Assembly: GCF_003944755.1 (NCBI RefSeq)
Contig: NZ_RWGU01000047.1
Span: 186,001 to 250,000 of the forward strand
From: Rhodovulum robiginosum
Lineage (GTDB): Bacteria; Pseudomonadota; Alphaproteobacteria; Rhodobacterales; Rhodobacteraceae
DNA length: 64,000 nt
Direction: 5' to 3'
This document shows, one piece after another, positions 54,499 through 64,000 of the stretch. A model generated the notes under the pieces. The model was not told the DNA's origin. It ran no database searches and saw only the letters and a list, made by a program, of their open reading frames with translations. Within the stretch, counting starts at the first letter, position 1, and each line of letters starts with the position of its first letter. A program made the translations under genes and the position numbers.

Positions 54499-57400
54499 TC
54501 AATAGTCGCGTTCGAAGTACACGCCGATCCCGCTCTCGCCCTCGCTGGTGGTACGCCCGCGCACGGTGATCGAGTCGGTCAGGTCGAGGTTGAGGTCGAT
54601 CTCGGTCTTGCCTTCGGAATTGACGGTGACATCGGTGTAGACGTTGTCCGACAGGTATTTGCCGGCGCGCAACTCGGTGTTGCCGTCGTCATCGGTGGTG
54701 ATGTCGAGATCGTCGAGCCCGGCCCCGGCGCGCAGCCGTTCGACGATCGACACACCGCTCTTGCCGGCCAGGGTGCGGACCGCACTGGCCAGCTGAAGCG
54801 CCTGCAATGCAGACAGATCTTCGAGATCGCGATTGAACAGGAGCTGTGCCAGAATTTCGTCCTCGGGCAGTTCCGGTTCCGAGGTGAAACGGATTTCCGG
54901 TTCGCTGGCGGCCCCCTCGACGATGATCCGAACGGTCACCTCGCCGCTGTCGGTTTCGGCCAGCAGGTAGAGCGTCGGGTCGAAATCCCCCTCGAGCTGG
55001 GCCCAGCCCTCGGTCATCATCAGCCGCTGGCCAAGGATGTCGAGCCGGCCGCGCACCAGCTCGAACCGGCCCGAGGGCTCGATGGCGTTGGTGGTGCCGC
55101 CGATCCTAAGCGAACCGCCGAGTTCGGCATCGAGGCCGCGGCCGCGCAGGAAGATACGGTTGATGGCGTTGATCCGGAGATCGAGCGCAAATCCCGGCCC
55201 GGCGGAGCCGCCATTGCCATTGCCGTCGGCGCTCTGCAACAGCCCGGCGCGGGCCCGTGTGGCGCGGCTCTGCCCCGGCTCGGTACGGTGCGCCAGCCCA
55301 TCGGGGATGGTGCCGCCGCCGCCAAGCCCGGTCGAGGGCACGCGCACTTCGGTCCCGTCCAGTTCGATCGTGCCGGCGATGCGGCCGCCGCCGGTCAAAG
55401 GCCCCGAAACCGTCAGCGTGCCGTCCAGCTCGGTCTGGTAGAGCGCGGGGTCGCTGACCACGGCGTCGTCCAGCACGATGGTCAGATCGGCCGGGAACGG
55501 CGGCGAGAGCGTGACCGGTCCGGTCACGCGCAGCAGGCCGCCCTGGCCCAGCCGGCTTTCCAAGGCCAGATCGGCACGCCCGGCGGCCAGCCCGACCCGC
55601 GCCGAGATATCTTCCAGCGCGATGCGCAGGGCCGGCGCGGTGGCCCGCGCGCCGCTGGTGGTGATGCTGCCTGCGAGGTTTTCCAGCGCCGGCGCGCCCT
55701 GAAGCCGCAGATCGAAATCCGCCGTGCCCTGCACCGCGCGCGGCGCGATGAAGGCATTGGCCAGGCCCAGCGGCGCGCGGCCCGATAACGTGAGGTCCAT
55801 CCGCTGCGCCGCGGTGCCGTCGATCTGCACGGTGGTACCGCCCGGCCCCTCGGCGCCGAGCGCCAGCCGCACGCCGCCGTCTTCGGGTGTCACCGTCCCG
55901 CTGACCGAGAGCGGCCCCGGGAAATCGGGCGCGATCAGCGCCAGATCGGCCAGCCGCGCATCGACGGCCATGGTATCGGAGCCTGCGCCTTGCGGCTGGA
56001 CGCGGGCACGCAGCACCGGCGTTTCGACCGAAACGCGGCCCGGCACGACCTGCCCGTCTTCCAGGGCGATATCGGCCGAGAATGTGCTGCGCCCGGCAAG
56101 CAGCCTGTCGGCTTCGGCCTGGCCCACGCGCAGATCGCGCCCGGTGCCGTCGAGCGTCAGGCGCACGTCGCGCGGACCCAGCGCGCCGCTGCCCTCGACG
56201 CGCGCCTCGAGGCTGCCGGCCAGCGGCCGGCCCGCCAGATCGGCATAGCGCGACAGGTCCTGTGCCGAAAGGGTGAGGCGCGCCTCGAAATCCTGCGCCG
56301 CGCTGGCCGGGTCGAAGGCGCCGTCTCCGGTCACGCGCAGCGCGGGCGCGGTCAGCGTCAGGTCGCTCAGCGCAATCGGGCTGCCGGCGGTCCAGCCGAT
56401 GCCGGTGGTCAGCTCGACCGGGCCAGCCGGGGCGCCGGGCAGGATCAATTGCGGCGAGGCCAGCCGCGCGGCCAGATCGAAGCTGCCGCTCTGGCTGTTC
56501 AGCCCGCCGCTGGCATTGGCCGAAAGCTCGGGCGTGACGATCTCGAAGGCGTCGATGCGGCTGCCCTCGGCATCGCGGGCGGCGCGCAGGATTAGCCGGC
56601 TGGCGCCCCTGAGCAGCGGGTCGGCCATCGGTTCGCCCACGGCCAGGTCCTGGCCCTCCGCGCTGAGCGCCACGTCGAAGCTGCGGTTGAGAATGGTGGC
56701 GCTGCCCTCGATCTCGGCGGCGACCGCGCCGCCCAGGCTGCGCCCGGCCAGTGCGGAAAAACGGTCGATCCGGTCGGCATCCAGCACGATTCGGCCAGAG
56801 GCGGGCAGCCCGTCGGCGGCGGGGTCGATCTGGCCGCTGCCGGTCAGGTCGATCCCGGCGCCCGACAGCGCCAGCCGGTCCAGCCGCACCGGCGCACCGT
56901 CCTGCCAGTCGATCTGCGCCTGGCCGGTCAGCGCCTCGCCCAGCGCGTCGGAAAGCGCGGCATCGGGAAATCCCAGGCCCTCGGCGACGAAGTCGAGCGC
57001 GGCCGAGACCGCCCTCTGGCCGCGCCGGGAAATCGTGCCGGTTCCCGACAACTCGGCCCGGTCCATCTGAATGTCGGGCCTGTCGAGGTCGGAAAGCTGC
57101 GCCCTGGCCGCCCAGGCATCGCCATCTGCGGCGTCAAAGCGCGCGGCGATGTCGGCGTGGCGCAGGGTGGTGGGCGCGCCGGGTACGGGCAGGCGCAGCG
57201 GCGCGCCGCCGGGCGTGCCGATCTCGCCGGTCAGGTCGAAGGCATCGGGCAGGCCGTCGGCGGCCAGCGCCAGGGTGCCGTTCAGCGTCAGCGCGGCGGC
57301 ATCCAGCGCCAGCGTGTCGATCTCGAGCCGCCCGTCGGGCAGGCGCTGGGCCGAGAATTGCAGCGCGGCGCGGTCGCCGAAGAACGGGTGCAGTGCGGGT

Positions 57401-58272
57401 TCGAGCAGCGCGGTCAGATCGCCCGAAACATCGGCGCCGAAGCGGCGCGCCGGCGGCGTGCCTTCGGCGGCGCCGGGCAGGGCGGCCTCGGCGGTGGTGA
57501 TCCTGCCGGTCAGCCGGTCCTGTCCGTCGGTGGCCAGCGCCAGTTCGGCCGCGTAGTCGGAAATCGGCGCGGTGCCCGCGACGGTGAAATCGACGCTGGG
57601 CGCGCCGGGCAGGCGCGCGAGCGTGGCCAGGATCCCGCCCGGCGCTTCGGACAGCGACAGGTCGAGCGCCAGCACCCGCGTTTCGTTGTCGTATCCGGCG
57701 TCGAGGTCGATCTCGCCGCTATCGGCATCGAGCCGCAGCATTTGCAACTGCGCCTCGCCGGCGCCATCGGCGAGTGTCAGCGAGCCGGTGAAGGAAAACG
57801 TCGCCGCCTGGCCCAGTACCGGCTCGCCCAGATCGAGGCGCTGGGCGGCGATCTCGCCGATATTCACCGAAACCGGCAACTCGGGCAGGCTGAACGGCTT
57901 GGCCTCGGTATCGGCCAGCTCGGGCCCCTTGTCGCCGCCGCCTTGCGGCAGGCGCGCCAGCACGATTTCTTCCGCAGAAAGCCGCGCCACCTGGAGCCGC
58001 CCGCGCAACAGCGCTGTGCGCGACCAGTCGAGTTCGGCGTTGCGCAGCGTCAGCCAGATGCCGTCGGCATCGGCGACGGTCAGCTCGTCCAGCGTCGCCT
58101 GTGACGACAACGCCCCCTCGAAGCCGGTGATGTCGACCGAGATCCCTTCGCCCGAGAGGTTGTCCTCGATCAGCCGTTCCAGAAGGCCGCGGTCTTCGTT
58201 GTCCTGCGCGGCGGCCGGCAGGGCGAGGCACAGCGCGAGCGCTGCGACGATATATAGGTGCAGCCGTCTCAA
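54499..58272 (-). CDS. tamB: translocation and assembly module protein TamB
   Basis: The 1257-residue AsmA-like protein spans the periplasm. Signal/anchor MRRLHLYIVAALALCLALPAAA, then long beta-taco repeats (GTLALAADGLPDAFDLTGEI and similar), ending in the conserved DUF490 domain (FELVRGRLDILGQRLMMTEGWAQLEG ... DSITVRGRTTSEGESGIGVYFERDY). TamB works with TamA and is implicated in outer-membrane protein assembly and in lipid transport. The ATGA overlap with tamA fixes the start. Confidence 0.93.
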   Translation of the reverse strand: MRRLHLYIVAALALCLALPAAAQDNEDRGLLERLIEDNLSGEGISVDITGFEGALSSQATLDELTVADADGIWLTLRNAELDWSRTALLRGRLQVARLSAEEIVLARLPQGGGDKGPELADTEAKPFSLPELPVSVNIGEIAAQRLDLGEPVLGQAATFSFTGSLTLADGAGEAQLQMLRLDADSGEIDLDAGYDNETRVLALDLSLSEAPGGILATLARLPGAPSVDFTVAGTAPISDYAAELALATDGQDRLTGRITTAEAALPGAAEGTPPARRFGADVSGDLTALLEPALHPFFGDRAALQFSAQRLPDGRLEIDTLALDAAALTLNGTLALAADGLPDAFDLTGEIGTPGGAPLRLPVPGAPTTLRHADIAARFDAADGDAWAARAQLSDLDRPDIQMDRAELSGTGTISRRGQRAVSAALDFVAEGLGFPDAALSDALGEALTGQAQIDWQDGAPVRLDRLALSGAGIDLTGSGQIDPAADGLPASGRIVLDADRIDRFSALAGRSLGGAVAAEIEGSATILNRSFDVALSAEGQDLAVGEPMADPLLRGASRLILRAARDAEGSRIDAFEIVTPELSANASGGLNSQSGSFDLAARLASPQLILPGAPAGPVELTTGIGWTAGSPIALSDLTLTAPALRVTGDGAFDPASAAQDFEARLTLSAQDLSRYADLAGRPLAGSLEARVEGSGALGPRDVRLTLDGTGRDLRVGQAEADRLLAGRSTFSADIALEDGQVVPGRVSVETPVLRARVQPQGAGSDTMAVDARLADLALIAPDFPGPLSVSGTVTPEDGGVRLALGAEGPGGTTVQIDGTAAQRMDLTLSGRAPLGLANAFIAPRAVQGTADFDLRLQGAPALENLAGSITTSGARATAPALRIALEDISARVGLAAGRADLALESRLGQGGLLRVTGPVTLSPPFPADLTIVLDDAVVSDPALYQTELDGTLTVSGPLTGGGRIAGTIELDGTEVRVPSTGLGGGGTIPDGLAHRTEPGQSRATRARAGLLQSADGNGNGGSAGPGFALDLRINAINRIFLRGRGLDAELGGSLRIGGTTNAIEPSGRFELVRGRLDILGQRLMMTEGWAQLEGDFDPTLYLLAETDSGEVTVRIIVEGAASEPEIRFTSEPELPEDEILAQLLFNRDLEDLSALQALQLASAVRTLAGKSGVSIVERLRAGAGLDDLDITTDDDGNTELRAGKYLSDNVYTDVTVNSEGKTEIDLNLDLTDSITVRGRTTSEGESGIGVYFERDY

Positions 58273-60062
58273 AACGCTTGCCCGATGCCGATATAGATTT
58301 GCACGCCGTCGCCGGTATCGCCCTGGATGGGGGCGCCCACATCAAGCCGGATCGGCCCGATGCCGGTGTCGTAGCGCAGACCGAGGCCCGCGCCGGCATG
58401 CCAGTCGCCGCCCTCGCCCGGTACTTCGCCATCGCCGATATGGCCCGCATCGACAAAGCCCACGACCCCGATCGACCGGGTGATCCCGGTGCGCAGTTCC
58501 ATCGACAGCCCGACGAAGCTGCGCCCGCCGCGGCTGTCGTCGTTGCCCAGGTCGACGGCAAGCGACTGGTAGGGCTGGCCGCGCACCGTGCCGCCGCCGC
58601 CCGAGTAGAACAGCCAGTCCGACGGCACCGCATCTGCCGACGCGCCCAGCAGGCTGCCCATCTGCACCCGGCCGGCCACCACGACGCGTTCGCCAAAGCC
58701 GCGATAGGCCCGCGCATCCGCATAAAGCCGCGCGCCGTTTTCGGGGTTGTCGAGCCCCACGAAGGGCTCGGCCTGCACCGACAGGTAGGTGCCCGTGCGC
58801 GGGTCGAGTTCCGAGTCGCGGGTGTCGCGGGTCATCGAGACCGGAAAGCTGAGCTGGGTGATCTCGCGGTCGCCCAGGTCGTCCTCGATCTCGGTGTAGC
58901 GCACCAGAAAGCCGGCGCTGCCCTCCAGCGTGTCCGAAAAGATATGGCTGAGCCCGGCGCCGACGGTGATGTCGCGCTGCTTGTAATCAGGCTCGTCGTC
59001 CGCGGATATCTCGCCAAGGACGTAAAGCGCGGTGTCGGGCGTGAACGTGGCCGGCCGCTCGAAAAGCGCGCCGAGCGAGTAGTCGATGCCGCCCGTTTCG
59101 CCCGACAGCCCGGCGATCTCGGCGCTCAGGCGCAGCCGTTCGGCCCCGCGCAGCAAGTTGCGGTGCATCCAAAAGCCCGACAGCGTCAGCCCGTCGGTGG
59201 TGCCATATTCGGCGCCAAAGCCCAGACGGCGCTTTTTCTCGTCGACCAGCGCGGCGGTGATGTCGAGCGTGCCATCGGGGTTTGCGGCATCGGCCTCGCG
59301 CAGCGCGACCGAGCGGAAGGTGCCGGTGCGGCGCAGCCGTTCGGTGCTGGCCTGCAACTCTTCGGGCGAAAACACCTCGCCCTCGGGCAGCCCGGCGATG
59401 GCGTGAACGCGTTCGGGCCGCACCCGCGTCCGGCCGTCGATCGCAAGCCGGCCAAAGCGCAGCCTCGGGCCGGGGTCCAGCCGCAACCGGGCATCGAGCG
59501 TGCGGGCGTCGTGGTCGGCGACCACGCTCTGGTCCGCAAGCGCCGCCTTGGCGTGGCCCGCGTCGCGCCAGGCGGCGATACTGGTCCGCCCGGCCTGTTC
59601 GATCAGCGAGGCGCGCGCGCGTTTGCCTGCCGCGAACCCGTCAGGAAGTTCGGTGCCCGGCGCCAGCGGTGCGATTTCGGCGCGAGAAAAGCGAAAACGC
59701 GGGCCGGGGTCGACGGTGATCGCCACACGGTCGATGCGGGCGGGCGCGCCGAAGGGCGGCAGATCGGCCACCTCGCGCCCGTCGACCCGGATGTGAATGA
59801 CGCCACCGTAATAGCCCTGCGCGTAAAGCACACCCAGCAACCGTGCGTAATCGGCGCGCGCCGCGGCCAGAAGATCCTGCGCTTCGGGCGGCGGGTCGGC
59901 GCGTCGGGCCTCGACCGTGAGCGATGCGTTTTCCAGCGCCTCGCCGAGTTCGGTGTCGTCGCCGTCGGCGGTCAGGCGCACCTCTACGGCCCGCGCAGCC
60001 TGGCCAAGCCAGAGGCCGAGCAGCAGTATGGCAAGCGGTGTGGAGACGCGTCGCAAAGACAA
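58269..60062 (-). CDS. tamA: outer-membrane assembly protein TamA (BamA family)
   Basis: The 597-residue Omp85 protein has signal peptide region LAILLLGLWLGQAARAVEVR, POTRA domains to about residue 270 (GGVIHIRVDGREVADLPPFG; FGRLAIDGRTRVRPERVHAI), and a 16-strand barrel ending YDTGIGPIRLDVGAPIQGDTGDGVQIYIGIGQAF. The barrel ends in the aromatic Phe recognised by BAM. The apparent start is TTG 60062, with no strong Shine-Dalgarno; a TTG two codons later is also possible. Coupled to tamB by ATGA. Confidence 0.92.
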   Translation of the reverse strand: MSLRRVSTPLAILLLGLWLGQAARAVEVRLTADGDDTELGEALENASLTVEARRADPPPEAQDLLAAARADYARLLGVLYAQGYYGGVIHIRVDGREVADLPPFGAPARIDRVAITVDPGPRFRFSRAEIAPLAPGTELPDGFAAGKRARASLIEQAGRTSIAAWRDAGHAKAALADQSVVADHDARTLDARLRLDPGPRLRFGRLAIDGRTRVRPERVHAIAGLPEGEVFSPEELQASTERLRRTGTFRSVALREADAANPDGTLDITAALVDEKKRRLGFGAEYGTTDGLTLSGFWMHRNLLRGAERLRLSAEIAGLSGETGGIDYSLGALFERPATFTPDTALYVLGEISADDEPDYKQRDITVGAGLSHIFSDTLEGSAGFLVRYTEIEDDLGDREITQLSFPVSMTRDTRDSELDPRTGTYLSVQAEPFVGLDNPENGARLYADARAYRGFGERVVVAGRVQMGSLLGASADAVPSDWLFYSGGGGTVRGQPYQSLAVDLGNDDSRGGRSFVGLSMELRTGITRSIGVVGFVDAGHIGDGEVPGEGGDWHAGAGLGLRYDTGIGPIRLDVGAPIQGDTGDGVQIYIGIGQAF

Positions 60063-60623
60063 GTTGGAATCGCTCGATCAGGTTTTGAACAAGTATAGCG
60101 GCGCTTGGGCGTCCGTCCATGCCCGGAACGCCAAAACGCCGGGCGGGCGACGGATCGGCGGCGGCGCCTCGGGGGCATACCGGCGGGGGCCGCACGACCG
60201 CCGAGGATTGAACCGCCCGCACTTGACCGGCCGGCCGTCGGCCTGGAGGCGGGGCCGTCCGGGTGGCGGGCCGAAGATGCACGACCTCGGCGCGCTTGCG
60301 GCCGCGCCGGGGTCCGGGCCGTGGCGGGCACGCCCCGTTGTCGTCCGTGCCATGTCGCGCGGGCGGTTGGCCAAGGTCGTCGCCGTCGGCGGGCGTACCG
60401 CTCGGCGTTCGTCGGGTTTGTCCGAGGCGCCGTGGCGGCAGAGGTCCGGCTGTGGCCCGCGGCGGGTGCTGACGGGCGCGTTTGCCGATGCTGGCCATCC
60501 CCTTCCGCCCTCTTTCGGGGCGATCAGGCTGCATTGCGCCCAAAAGGTAGGCAAATGCGTTCCGTTTCGGGCCGTTCGTCCCGCCGCGCTTGGGCGCGCG
60601 CGGCGGCGCGTCGTTAACTGATC
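60063..60623. other. 560-base G+C-rich gap without a supported gene
   Basis: Upstream of tamA the minus strand has TATACT at 60092-60097, a possible -10. Open frames across the gap on both strands are Arg/Pro/Ala-rich and unlike any family I know. No tRNA or classical RNA motif is seen. The riboswitch begins at its right end. Confidence 0.5.
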
Positions 60624-60738
60624 GCGCAGGGCACTTAGGGTTCCGCCCGGATACCGGGGACTGGTCCAAGAAGTGCCGCCGGGGCGGCAAATTCCGCCAA
60701 GGTACACGGCGGGCCAAAATCCCGGGAGAGTACTGCGC
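60624..60738 (+). promoter_or_regulatory. guanidine-I (ykkC) riboswitch aptamer
   Basis: The ykkC consensus blocks appear in order: TTAGGGTTCCG (60635-60645), ACTGGTCC (60660-60667), ACACGGCGGG (60704-60713), AAAATCCCGGGAGAGT (60717-60731). GCGCAG at 60624-60629 pairs with CTGCGC at 60733-60738 to close P1. An internal stem GCCGCC-GGG-GCGGC (60674-60687) fills the variable arm. Class I binds guanidinium and turns on genes for its export, import or breakdown. Seen in sequence; class from memory of the consensus. Confidence 0.92.
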
Positions 60739-60765
60739 CGGTTCGTTCCGCGCCTGTGACTCCTT

Positions 60766-60802
60766 GTTCCGCCCGCGGACCGGCTACCACCTTTGGCGGG
60801 AC
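60766..60802 (+). promoter_or_regulatory. candidate riboswitch expression platform
   Basis: GTTCCGCC (60766-60773) pairs with GGCGGGAC (60795-60802). CTCC at 60760-60763 is complementary to the GGAG of the Shine-Dalgarno (60809-60812), so an extended stem could hide the ribosome site when guanidine is absent. Pairings are seen; switching is inferred. Confidence 0.5.
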
Positions 60803-60821
60803 GCAGAGGGAGCCGAACACC

Positions 60822-61874
60822 ATGAGAAACGCCACCATCCTGTCCGCCGCCGTGCTGGCCGCAGCCCTGGGCGCGCCCGCGACGGCCGAGGAAAAAACCG
60901 AGTTCAAGCTGGCCTGGTCGATCTACGTGGGCTGGATGCCCTGGGGCTATCTGGAAGACTCCGGCATCATGGACAAATGGGCCGACAAATACGGCATCGA
61001 TGTCGAGATCGTGCAGATCAACGACTACATAGAGTCGATCAACCAGTATACGGCCGGCGCCTTCGACGGGGTCTCGGCCACCAACATGGACACGCTGTCG
61101 ATCCCCGCGGGCGGGGGCGTGGACACCACGGCGCTGATCGTGGGCGACTATTCCAACGGCAACGACGCGGTGATCCTGAAGGGCGAGGGCGACCTGACCT
61201 CGCTGGCGGGCAAGCCGGTGCACCTGGTGGAGTTGTCGGTGTCGCATTACCTGCTGGCCCGCGGGCTCGACAGCGTGGGGCTTTCCGAGGCCGACCTCGA
61301 CGGGGTGATCAACACCTCCGATGCCGACATGATCGCCGCCTACGCGCCGCAGGATGTCGAGGCGGTGGTGACATGGAACCCGCTGGTTTCGAGCATCATG
61401 GAACAGCCCGACGCGAACAAGCTGTTCGACAGCTCCGACATTGCGGGCGAGATCATCGACCTGATGGTGGTCAATACCGAGACGCTGGAAGACAACCCCG
61501 CCTTCGGCAAGGCGGTGGCCGGCGCCTGGTACGAGTTGATGGGCCTGATGGCCGCCGGCGACGAAGAGGTGCTGAGCGCGATGGCCGAGGCTTCGGGTAC
61601 CGATCTGGCCGGCTACAAGGCGCAGCTCGACTCCACCGAGATGTTCTATGACCCCGCCGCGGCGGTGGCCTTTGCCGAGGGCGCCGATTTGCCCAAGACG
61701 ATGGTCAACGTGGCCGAGTTCCTGTTCGACAAGGGCATCCTGGGCGAGGGCGCGCCGAGCCCCGATTTCGTGGGGGTCGCGTATCCCGACGGCTCGACCA
61801 CGGGCGATGCGGACAACGTCAGGTTCCGCTTCGACACGACCTACATGCAGATGGCCGCCGACGGCGCGCTCTAA
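60822..61874 (+). CDS. ABC transporter substrate-binding protein, predicted guanidine (urea-carboxylase-region type)
   Basis: The 350-residue periplasmic protein. Signal peptide MRNATILSAAVLAAALGAPATA; mature KTEFKLAWSIYVGWMPWGYL. The family is NrtA/TauA-like and matches the group labelled 'putative urea ABC transporter, urea carboxylase region', now linked to guanidine uptake because it sits behind guanidine-I riboswitches. Motifs: AGAFDGVSATNMDTLSIPAG and VELSVSHYLLARGLD. GGGAG lies 9 bases before ATG 60822. The riboswitch upstream makes guanidine the best ligand guess. Confidence 0.88.
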   Translation: MRNATILSAAVLAAALGAPATAEEKTEFKLAWSIYVGWMPWGYLEDSGIMDKWADKYGIDVEIVQINDYIESINQYTAGAFDGVSATNMDTLSIPAGGGVDTTALIVGDYSNGNDAVILKGEGDLTSLAGKPVHLVELSVSHYLLARGLDSVGLSEADLDGVINTSDADMIAAYAPQDVEAVVTWNPLVSSIMEQPDANKLFDSSDIAGEIIDLMVVNTETLEDNPAFGKAVAGAWYELMGLMAAGDEEVLSAMAEASGTDLAGYKAQLDSTEMFYDPAAAVAFAEGADLPKTMVNVAEFLFDKGILGEGAPSPDFVGVAYPDGSTTGDADNVRFRFDTTYMQMAADGAL

Positions 61875-61925
61875 GGCCCACGCGCCCCGGCCCAAGCGGC
61901 CGGGGCCACCCGAGCCCCCAGCATC

Positions 61926-62738
61926 ATGCGCCTGATCAACCGCCGTCCCGGCCGCGTGCTGACCGCCTTTCTGGCGGCGCTGCCCTTCGTTCTGGTGATG
62001 CTCGCCTATATGGTGGGCTCGGACATCCGGCTGGCCGAGAACCCGTCGGACAAGCTGATGCCGGCGCCGGCGCAGATCGCGGCGACCGCCGAGCGGCTGC
62101 TGACCGAGCCCGACCGGCGCTCGGGGCGGATCCTGTTCTGGTACGACACCGCCGTCAGCCTGAAACGGCTGGCCATCGGCGTGGGGCTCGCCGCCTCGAC
62201 CGGGCTGATCTTCGGGCTGCTGATCGGGCTCTTGCCGCATATCCGCGCGACATTCTCGGGCTTCGTCGCCGTCATCTCGATGGTGCCGCCGCTGGCGCTG
62301 TTGCCGATCCTGTTCATCGTGTTCGGGCTGGGCGAGCTGTCGAAGGTGGTGCTGATCGTGATCGGCATCACGCCCTTTCTGATCCGCGACCTCAGCCAGC
62401 GCACGCTGGAGATCCCGCGCGAGCAGATCGTCAAGGCCGAGACGCTGGGCGCGTCCACATTCACCATCGCCCTGCGCGTGGCATTGCCGCAGGTCCTGCC
62501 GCGGCTGATCCAGTCCGTGCGGCTGTCGCTGGGTCCGGCCTGGCTGTTTCTGATCGCGGCCGAGGCCATCGCCTCGGACCTCGGGCTCGGCTACCGCATC
62601 TTCCTGGTGCGCCGTTACCTGGCGATGGACGTGATCCTGACCTACGTGATCTGGATCACGCTGCTTGCGTTCATGATCGACTGGGCGCTCAAGGTGCTGG
62701 CCCGCCGGGCCTTTCCCTGGACGGGGGCCAGCCTATGA
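61926..62738 (+). CDS. ABC transporter permease, predicted guanidine importer
   Basis: The 270-residue BPD-type permease of the nitrate/sulfonate/taurine class. About six helices; the EAA loop reads VKAETLGASTFTIALRVALP. ALLPILFIVFGLGELSKVVL is typical of this subfamily. It follows the binding-protein gene after 51 bases and overlaps the ATPase ATG as ATGA, so the transporter is translated as a unit. Confidence 0.9.
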   Translation: MRLINRRPGRVLTAFLAALPFVLVMLAYMVGSDIRLAENPSDKLMPAPAQIAATAERLLTEPDRRSGRILFWYDTAVSLKRLAIGVGLAASTGLIFGLLIGLLPHIRATFSGFVAVISMVPPLALLPILFIVFGLGELSKVVLIVIGITPFLIRDLSQRTLEIPREQIVKAETLGASTFTIALRVALPQVLPRLIQSVRLSLGPAWLFLIAAEAIASDLGLGYRIFLVRRYLAMDVILTYVIWITLLAFMIDWALKVLARRAFPWTGASL

Positions 62739-63502
62739 GCTTCGTGACCGTGCGCGACCTGTTCCAGAGCTACGGCGGCCGCCCGATCCTCGAACGGATC
62801 AATCTCGAGGTGGAGGAGGGCGAGTTCGTCTCGATCGTCGGCGCCTCCGGCTGCGGCAAGTCCACCTTCCTGCGGCTGCTTCTGGCCGAGGAACAGCCCT
62901 CGCGCGGGGACATCCGCATCGCCGGGGCCGAGCCCGCGCGCGAGCCGGGGCGCGAACGCGGCGTGGTGTTCCAGCGCTACTCGGTCTTTCCGCATATGAC
63001 GGTGCGCGAAAACATCGTGGCCGGCGACAGCTTCACCCGCCCGCTGGGCCGGTTTTTCGGCGCCGCCCGGCGCGCGGCGTTGCGGCGCGCAGACGAGACG
63101 CTGGCGCGGATCGGGCTGGCCCACGTCGCCGATGCCTACCCGGCCACGCTGTCGGGCGGGATGCAGCAGCGGCTGGCCATCGGGCAGGCGCTGACCGCGC
63201 GGCCGCGCATCCTGCTGCTCGACGAGCCCTTCGGCGCGCTCGATCCGGGCACGCGGCTGTCGATGCACGATTTCCTGACCGAGCTTCGCGCCCAGACCGG
63301 AATGACCGTTTTCATGGTCACCCATGACCTTGAGGAAGGCTTCAAGCTGGGCGACCGCGTCATCGTCTTCGACAAACCGCGGTGGGACCCGACCGACCCG
63401 GAGGCCTACGGGGCGACCATCACCTACGATTTCGATGCCCGCAACGGCGGCATCCCGTTTCAGACCATCAAGGAGGAAACCCATGTTCTTCGCCCCGCCT
63501 GA
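62735..63502 (+). CDS. ABC transporter ATP-binding protein, predicted guanidine importer
   Basis: The 255-residue ATPase: Walker A GASGCGKST, signature LSGGMQQRLAIGQ, Walker B RILLLDEPFGALDP, switch His in VTHDLEEGF. The C-terminal extension ends TYDFDARNGGIPFQTIKEET. Its last 20 bases overlap the ureohydrolase start, with the next gene's AAGGAGG inside this coding region. Confidence 0.92.
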   Translation: MSFVTVRDLFQSYGGRPILERINLEVEEGEFVSIVGASGCGKSTFLRLLLAEEQPSRGDIRIAGAEPAREPGRERGVVFQRYSVFPHMTVRENIVAGDSFTRPLGRFFGAARRAALRRADETLARIGLAHVADAYPATLSGGMQQRLAIGQALTARPRILLLDEPFGALDPGTRLSMHDFLTELRAQTGMTVFMVTHDLEEGFKLGDRVIVFDKPRWDPTDPEAYGATITYDFDARNGGIPFQTIKEETHVLRPA

Positions 63503-64000
63503 GCGCCGGCGCTCGCACCACCCGGCCGACCAGTGCCGGCCCGAGTCGCGCCAGCACCACCCCGACCTCTCCCGGCTGCAGGGCTGGAAGTCGATGAAGG
63601 CCGAGGCCGATCTCCCCGAGGGCCGCTGGGACGAGGAACGCCGCTGGGCGCTGCGCATGGGCCTGACCGGCGCCGACTCGATCGAGGACAAGTCGATCCC
63701 GACCTTCGCGCGCGGCGAGCTGCCCCATTACGCGGGCATCAACACCTTCCTCAAGGCGCCCTATACCGAGGACGCCACCGAGGTCGGGCATTACGACGCC
63801 ACCGTGCTGGGGGCGCCCTTCGACGGCGGCACCACCTACCGGCCCGGCACCCGGTTCGGCCCGCAGGGCGTGCGCAAGATCAGCGCGCTTTACACGCCCT
63901 ACAACTACGAACTCGGCGTCGATCTGCGCGAGCAGATGACGCTGTGCGACGCGGGCGACATCTTCACCATCCCGGCCAATATCGAGAAAACCTTCGACCA
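63483..64000 (+). CDS. ureohydrolase with N-terminal extension, predicted guanidine hydrolase (3' end outside window)
   Basis: The first 172 residues are present. The ureohydrolase core motif GAPFDGGTTYRPGTRFGPQG begins near residue 110, against about residue 52 in the agmatinase at 35608, so it has roughly 58 extra N-terminal residues (MFFAPPERRRSHHPADQCRP ... FARGELPHYAGINTFLKAPY). Ni-dependent guanidine hydrolase GdmH (Synechocystis Sll1077) is an agmatinase-like enzyme with such an extension. The riboswitch and importer upstream support guanidine as substrate. The metal-site motifs lie beyond the window, so agmatinase or another ureohydrolase is not excluded. Strong AAGGAGG before ATG. 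Confidence 0.85.
   Translation, partial: MFFAPPERRRSHHPADQCRPESRQHHPDLSRLQGWKSMKAEADLPEGRWDEERRWALRMGLTGADSIEDKSIPTFARGELPHYAGINTFLKAPYTEDATEVGHYDATVLGAPFDGGTTYRPGTRFGPQGVRKISALYTPYNYELGVDLREQMTLCDAGDIFTIPANIEKTFD

Follow-up and report, generated by a model that had tools for sequence, protein, structure and literature searches.

Operons in which a Guanidine-I riboswitch, an ATP-binding cassette (ABC) importer and a guanidinase (GdmH) stand together have been published for Synechocystis, as described in the sections consulted of PMC8390497 and of PMC12186494, the latter a review of the arrangement, and descriptions of the same kind cover Synechocystis and picocyanobacteria in which GdmH, hypA, hypB and an ABC importer are under Guanidine-I control (PMC8390497, PMC10119275). 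The pathway of guanidine import and hydrolysis is already known, and the combination of riboswitch, ABC importer and guanidinase is not new. We analyzed a stretch of 64,000 nucleotides from Rhodovulum robiginosum (the window; positions 186001-250000 of contig C46) that ends within an operon of this known kind. Its new element is a histidine-rich partner protein, here called P0001, which is encoded directly after gdmH and has a testable, unproven role in nickel supply. We read the locus as a guanidine-inducible nitrogen-scavenging operon in which P0001 would load nickel into GdmH, and we put the probability of this explanation as a whole at roughly 0.68.

With the operon of Synechocystis sp. 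PCC 6803 (sll1077 for GdmH, hypA/hypB homologues, and sll1080-1082 for the importer), the R. robiginosum operon shares Guanidine-I control, the ABC importer, the GdmH clade and the specificity residues, but here the importer genes lead, HypA/HypB were not found among the genes of the operon, and the histidine-rich protein and a 55-residue protein come after gdmH. The Nitrospira inopinata locus, in the portion of its description consulted, shares Guanidine-I control, the GdmH clade and the lack of HypA/HypB nearby; it differs in having an APC permease instead of the ABC importer, and that portion names no helper gene. In the operons for metformin/dimethylguanidine hydrolase of Aminobacter and Pseudomonas, too, genes devoted to nickel and an adjoining hupE accompany a related nickel ureohydrolase, according to the parts consulted of PMC11399263, but that enzyme has two subunits and requires HypA/HypB, and its solved chains match the R. 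robiginosum hydrolase at only 127-135 bits.

A guanidinase operon under Guanidine-I control

The features of the operon are given below. The contig continues for 3,612 bases beyond the window and ends at 253612; positions above 64000 continue the numbering of the window (position in our locus L010 plus 60000).

60624-60730, + strand: Guanidine-I (ykkC) riboswitch aptamer, RF00442 at 78.3 bits; family model R1 at 129.2 bits over 60615-60734
60731-60821, + strand: leader with two conserved interleaved stems, a putative translational switch (52 leaders aligned)
60822-61874, + strand: ABC substrate-binding protein, NCBI family name 'putative urea ABC transporter' (TIGR03427, 515.3 bits, cut-off 333.9); we picked the ATG start at 60822, and the mechanical open reading frame (ORF) starts at GTG 60756
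61926-62738, + strand: ABC permease (PF00528, 70.9 bits)
62735-63502, + strand: ABC ATPase (PF00005, 117.8 bits), ATGA overlap with the permease
63483-64000, + strand, cut by the window end and ending at 64727: guanidinase GdmH, 414 residues, 20-base overlap with the ATPase
64717-65169, + strand, outside the window: P0001, histidine-rich, 150 residues, 11-base overlap with gdmH
65166-65333, + strand, outside the window: 55-residue ORF with a histidine motif, ATGA overlap with P0001

A reading made from the letters of the window (the sequence-only reading) had placed a Guanidine-I riboswitch ahead of the operon and named a covariance-model scan as the check. That scan (cmscan) called RF00442 over the whole model (1-107), above the gathering score of 63 and with an E value of 3e-12, and at E ≤ 0.001 the window copy is the sole match in the 3.71-Mb genome. 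The call is genuine, and in an alignment of 25 relatives 17 of the 30 predicted aptamer pairs show compensatory changes. For comparison we used 80 named loci, the best 80 of 212 relatives of P0001 from one GTDB contig scan; chosen in this way, they test the context of P0001 and not that of GdmH. Model R1, built from 24 of these loci plus the window (25 sequences, which match by construction), finds the riboswitch upstream of gdmH in 77 of the 80, and the misses comprise two contigs that begin inside the operon (L142 and L156) and one unexplained case (L147). R1 also matches at the Sinorhizobium loci L076 and L081, at L191-L195 and at a Rubrobacter locus (L077), with no match at L078-L080. A count of 52 of 80 loci from a regular-expression scan was dropped, since the covariance model recovers 77. 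The aptamer is predicted to bind guanidine and to switch expression. At L195 (genome G433) the riboswitch lies directly ahead of gdmH and P0001, and the importer genes of the operon were unmatched within 11 kb. On the Rubrobacter indicoceani plasmid that carries L077, the Guanidine-I RNA stands directly before gdmH, followed by genes for a sodium:solute symporter, formamidase and urease, which adds a further transporter type beside a guanidinase.

The ABC importer that had been placed behind the riboswitch was confirmed by the binding protein, which scores 515 bits on TIGR03427 against a cut-off of 334, and both overlaps claimed for the unit, ATGA between permease and ATPase (62735) and 20 bases between ATPase and hydrolase (63483-63502), were seen in the sequence. 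Of the 80 named loci, 76 have the binding protein, 78 the permease and 79 the ATPase. The importer probably carries guanidine.

The remainder of the hydrolase gene, expected beyond position 64000, was found on the same contig. In a phmmer search of solved chains, the protein scored 549.6 bits with 7esr/7oi1 (Synechocystis Sll1077) and 546.9 with 9fek (N. inopinata), the next chain scoring 176.3, and it is 95% identical to the GdmH of Actibacterium ureilyticum, which suggests a genome in or near Roseobacteraceae. A 24-row tree places it in a 21-row clade with 7esr and 9fek (support 100/100), the three outside rows being proclavaminate amidinohydrolase, guanidinobutyrase and guanidinopropionase, with long branches flagged; within the clade, the 15 GdmH rows associated with P0001 form one group (98/98). 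The His, DxHxD and DxD motifs, which we take to be the metal ligands of ureohydrolases, are present in 79/79 named loci (H195, D219, H221, D223, D311 and D313 here), and the metal in the active site would be nickel. In the part of PMC11410670 consulted, Thr97 and Trp305 (Synechocystis numbering) are said to set specificity for guanidine. These residues correspond to T118 and W325 in the window GdmH, given an offset of 2 in the PDB chain numbering with which both sites, and also Trp313 of 9fek, agree, and they are kept in 79/79 named loci, 11/11 loci of the class sample described below and 5/5 further GdmH loci (genome G613 is counted twice across the sets). An agmatinase assignment was rejected, as the TIGR01230 score of 166.8 bits is narrowly below the equivalog cut-off of 174.3 and agmatinase falls outside the clade of guanidinases. 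By score, clade and residues, then, the gene behind the importer is predicted to encode a guanidinase and not an agmatinase, in keeping with the claim that a hydrolase here takes the place of a carboxylase. The sequence-only reading had coupled two observations as evidence against guanidine, a hydrolase that groups with agmatinases and a lack of nickel-insertion genes downstream; the second was made, in that no HypA/HypB was found, but the hydrolase lies outside the agmatinases, and because it does not group with them the guanidine reading survives.

We assessed the fate of urea through urease alpha, which is encoded in the R. robiginosum genome itself (contig C11). Genomes were drawn from a family sample of 345, one per genus (thresholds E ≤ 1e-120 for GdmH and E ≤ 0.001 for P0001), and a phylum sample of 398 (E ≤ 1e-110 for GdmH). 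Across the 53 GdmH genomes considered for urease and HypB, urease alpha is above cut-off in 52, and in the remaining one (G098) a fragment of it sits where a contig ends. Among the 340 family genomes in the urease comparison, 258 have urease: 46 of the 47 with GdmH and 212 of the 293 without it (Fisher P = 2.8e-5, a guide only, as the genomes are related). Guanidine import and hydrolysis are well supported because the hydrolase is GdmH and the genome has urease, and we hold it very probable that the operon serves this purpose; the GdmH clade, the specificity residues and the urease gene together favor the claimed conversion of guanidine to urea and ammonia. In the mechanism that we propose, guanidine binding to the aptamer would turn the operon on, the ABC importer would bring guanidine into the cell, GdmH would split it into urea and ammonium, and urease would release more ammonium from the urea.

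P0001 and its linkage to GdmH

Within the family sample, GdmH occurs in 49 genomes, P0001 in 51 and both in 48, so that the GdmH route, described for cyanobacteria and comammox bacteria, is present in 49/345 genomes, with named relatives in Roseobacteraceae. In 47 of the 48 co-occurring genomes a single contig carries both genes, P0001 following gdmH at a distance of at most 592 bases (within 205 bases in 46), and in the remaining one (G098) the two genes are split over two contig ends. The GdmH genome with no P0001 match (G342) has its gdmH cut by a contig end. The phylum sample has GdmH in 7/398 genomes, three of them already counted, and the four new ones (L071-L074), from outside the family, all carry the P0001 family, which was sought within 1.5 kb beside gdmH. 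A hidden Markov model of the P0001 family, scanned against a class sample of 385 genomes (in which the R. robiginosum genome and G613 are counted again), matches 13, with gdmH directly upstream in 11; the other two are L186, where a piece of the binding protein lies beside a piece of P0001, and L187, a piece of P0001. Likewise, gdmH is upstream of P0001 in 79/80 named loci, in 73 of them at no more than 200 bases from the matched stretch, and the one exception (L142) is situated close to the start of its contig. No P0001 was found in about 13 kb around each of four actinobacterial GdmH loci (L077-L080). Decayed guanidine operons were also seen, with pieces of P0001, gdmH and permease side by side in G320 (L188) and pieces of P0001 beside pieces of the binding protein in G1050 (L186).

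A motif near the N terminus of GdmH, HHP(D/N/S) (residues 26-29 here), is found in every P0001-linked GdmH with a printed N terminus: as HHPD in 79/79 named loci, 10/11 class loci (L180 has HHPS) and L076, L081, L191 and L194, and as HHPN in L192, L193 and L195. Where P0001 is missing, L078-L080 have no HHP(D/N/S) motif and L077 has HHHPE, a contrast set of four for a motif spotted post hoc, with the Synechocystis and Nitrospira N termini outside the comparison.

P0001 itself consists of a tail and a core. The first 40 residues contain a median of 16 histidines (range, 6 to 22) in the 80 named homologues, and AlphaFold2 with 50 homologues gave residues 1-35 as disordered, nearly all with a predicted local distance difference test score (pLDDT) below 50, followed by a core mostly above 90 and weaker around residues 95-115. 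A model of the core alone (61 sequences) reaches a mean pLDDT of 86.9 and is made up of two helices, several strands and, at the end, one more helix. Across these 61 core sequences 34 columns are invariant, and tail length is far more variable than that of the core. HypA/HypB, UreE/UreG and Hpn-type nickel proteins are small, some of them histidine-rich, and are encoded in nickel-enzyme operons. Unlike them, P0001 could be assigned to no Pfam or NCBIfam family above cut-off and to no known fold: all 11 P0001 family members searched matched no family at E ≤ 0.01, known nickel chaperones included, the one subthreshold Pfam match of P0001 itself being RlmM_FDX (E = 0.06), and neither of the two models reached E ≤ 0.001 with any PDB entry in Foldseek. 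The top Foldseek matches were mostly COMM-domain proteins, and we do not claim a COMM-like fold for the core because their E values were 0.13 to 0.7, their template modeling scores were low and their root mean square deviations were high. In two annotated plasmids P0001 is labeled 'hypothetical protein', and no paper on it was found in the open-licence literature, where some papers were judged by title or the start of the abstract and the founding Funck 2022 study was not covered.

The 55-residue ORF was unmatched in Pfam and NCBIfam. In 40/80 named loci an ORF of 40 to 75 residues with an Ala-His/Gln...His-x-His-Gly type of pattern begins at the end of P0001, and 35 of these 40 overlap P0001 by 4 bases; the pattern was defined after examples had been seen.

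Nickel supply and candidate roles of P0001

Genes for HypA/HypB-like nickel inserters had been anticipated just past the window edge. This expectation failed: with the contig read to its end, none of the three genes after the hydrolase has a Pfam or NCBIfam match to them. At the genome level, where the counts cover HypB and HypA was not searched for, HypB (TIGR00073) is above cut-off in 16/53 GdmH genomes, including R. robiginosum, and not in the other 37; it is on the contig of gdmH in 3 of the 16, at least 46.8 kb away, and on a different contig of a draft genome in the others. Weaker HypB matches in other GdmH genomes are probably UreG. HupE/UreJ (PF04955), presumably a nickel/cobalt permease family, follows P0001 in two loci tested outside the family, L071 and L081 (Sinorhizobium fredii), at 169 and 157 bits, and in L076, from the same species as L081, a similar ORF was recognized by eye; the single HupE/UreJ of the R. 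robiginosum genome sits elsewhere, on C11.

We suggest that P0001 stands in for the HypA/HypB pair of the Synechocystis operon. Ni(II) would be collected by the flexible tail with its many histidines (approximately residues 1-35), and the folded core (approximately residues 36-150) would dock on GdmH and pass the nickel to the active site. Nickel entry may be aided by the 55-residue protein or, elsewhere in the class, by the HupE/UreJ that some operons encode. That P0001 is required for nickel loading into GdmH, for which linkage and tail composition are the evidence, seems to us somewhat the better bet. More tentatively, at a little under even odds, P0001 may represent a novel nickel metallochaperone family that has an unseen fold and is dedicated to the guanidinase in this class, in which one GTP-free protein replaces HypA and the GTPase HypB and reads the HHP(D/N/S) motif of GdmH.

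Several points weigh against a chaperone role. The R. robiginosum genome encodes HypB elsewhere (C49:165983), so that GdmH could be supplied through HypA/HypB in this organism. Membership in one operon indicates that genes are used together, not that one of them encodes a chaperone, and P0001 matches occur without an intact gdmH: as a piece with no gdmH within 9 kb in G832 (L187), as fragments in G159, as a weak match in G045 and as decayed pieces in G320 and G1050, with G159, G045 and G320 lacking GdmH at threshold. Some P0001 homologues have only 6 to 8 histidines in their first 40 to 45 residues, and three P0001 loci from outside the family (L193, L194 and L195) show, by eye, no HupE-like ORF after P0001. 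Histidine-rich tails also bind zinc, cobalt or copper and may store metal rather than deliver it. Finally, the Nitrospira guanidinase is active although the part of PMC11410670 consulted reports that no such chaperones were found and calls nickel loading unclear, and a helper may therefore not be essential.

An unlikely alternative, and the one that survives best, is that P0001 serves as a buffer or store for nickel (or for zinc or cobalt) in the manner of the histidine-rich Hpn proteins, made together with GdmH without docking on it. The predicted disorder and histidine content of the tail would suit such a role, and Helicobacter has small histidine-rich proteins that bind nickel (PMC4671568, in the part consulted). 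A store, however, would need no strongly conserved folded core, and the core of P0001, with its 34 invariant columns, is found almost only with GdmH and varies much less in length than the tail.

Less probable still is that P0001 acts as a partner in the assembly, stability or activity of GdmH with no metal involved, nickel arriving through HypA/HypB or UreG encoded elsewhere or unaided. This would agree with the R. robiginosum genome, where HypB is encoded and a lower-scoring HypB match next to urease probably represents UreG. It would also agree with the actinobacterial loci L077-L080, which lack P0001 and of which the two annotated ones, L077 and L079, have no HypA/HypB over some 13 kb, and with the Nitrospira guanidinase, which works without known chaperones in the account consulted. 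Against it stand the 37 of 53 GdmH genomes without HypB above cut-off and the presence of at least 6 histidines within the first 40 residues of all 80 named homologues. That the operon serves another guanidino compound, such as agmatine, with the riboswitch merely sensing a by-product, is very improbable: PDB names do read agmatinase and the NCBI name of the importer family does refer to urea, but GdmH is under the agmatinase equivalog cut-off, if not by much, both specificity residues are kept in every GdmH locus scored, and agmatine gave characterized relatives little or no activity in the portions consulted of PMC11410670 and PMC12186494.

As a nickel-loading partner, P0001 would be a concrete helper candidate for further guanidinase operons without HypA/HypB, being present together with GdmH in 48 of the 345 family genera sampled. 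Its role bears on the question of how the comammox guanidinase, described without HypA/HypB in the part of PMC11410670 consulted, obtains nickel, and P0001 may offer a way to activate such guanidinases for guanidine removal.

The leader and flanking genes

Between the aptamer and the first gene, the leader contains two stems whose arms interleave, GUUCCGCC pairing with GGCGGGAC and CCGC with GCGG, and because of this interleaving the two are mutually exclusive or form a pseudoknot. In the 52 aligned leaders, that of the window and 51 related ones, 85.2% of the cells in the stem columns are paired, compared with 39.5 to 47.6% in slid versions, and the covariation score is 0.155, compared with at most 0.101 when slid. 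Seven pairs change on both sides, a number matched by 0/500 shuffles, but slid versions reach 8 (-3) and 7 (-1, +3), and 106/500 shuffles equal the count of pair types. A per-sequence stem search was nondiscriminating, with both stems in 44/52 leaders and shuffles giving about 35/52 for each, and minimum free energy folding of the leader was no better than shuffles (z = 0.70). No intrinsic terminator was found in the leader. A run of pyrimidines that precedes the first stem could mask the ribosome-binding site, and we regard translational control by the leader as putative.

On the downstream side, an SbcD-like gene, scoring under NCBI's SbcD cut-off, comes after the 55-residue ORF, and SbcD-like and then, by eye, SbcC-like genes fill the contig from the end of the operon to the contig end (5418-7612 in L010). 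Upstream of the guanidine operon, the - strand of the window (54499-60062) encodes, divergently from it, TamB (PF04357) and a TamA-like Omp85 protein that includes POTRA.

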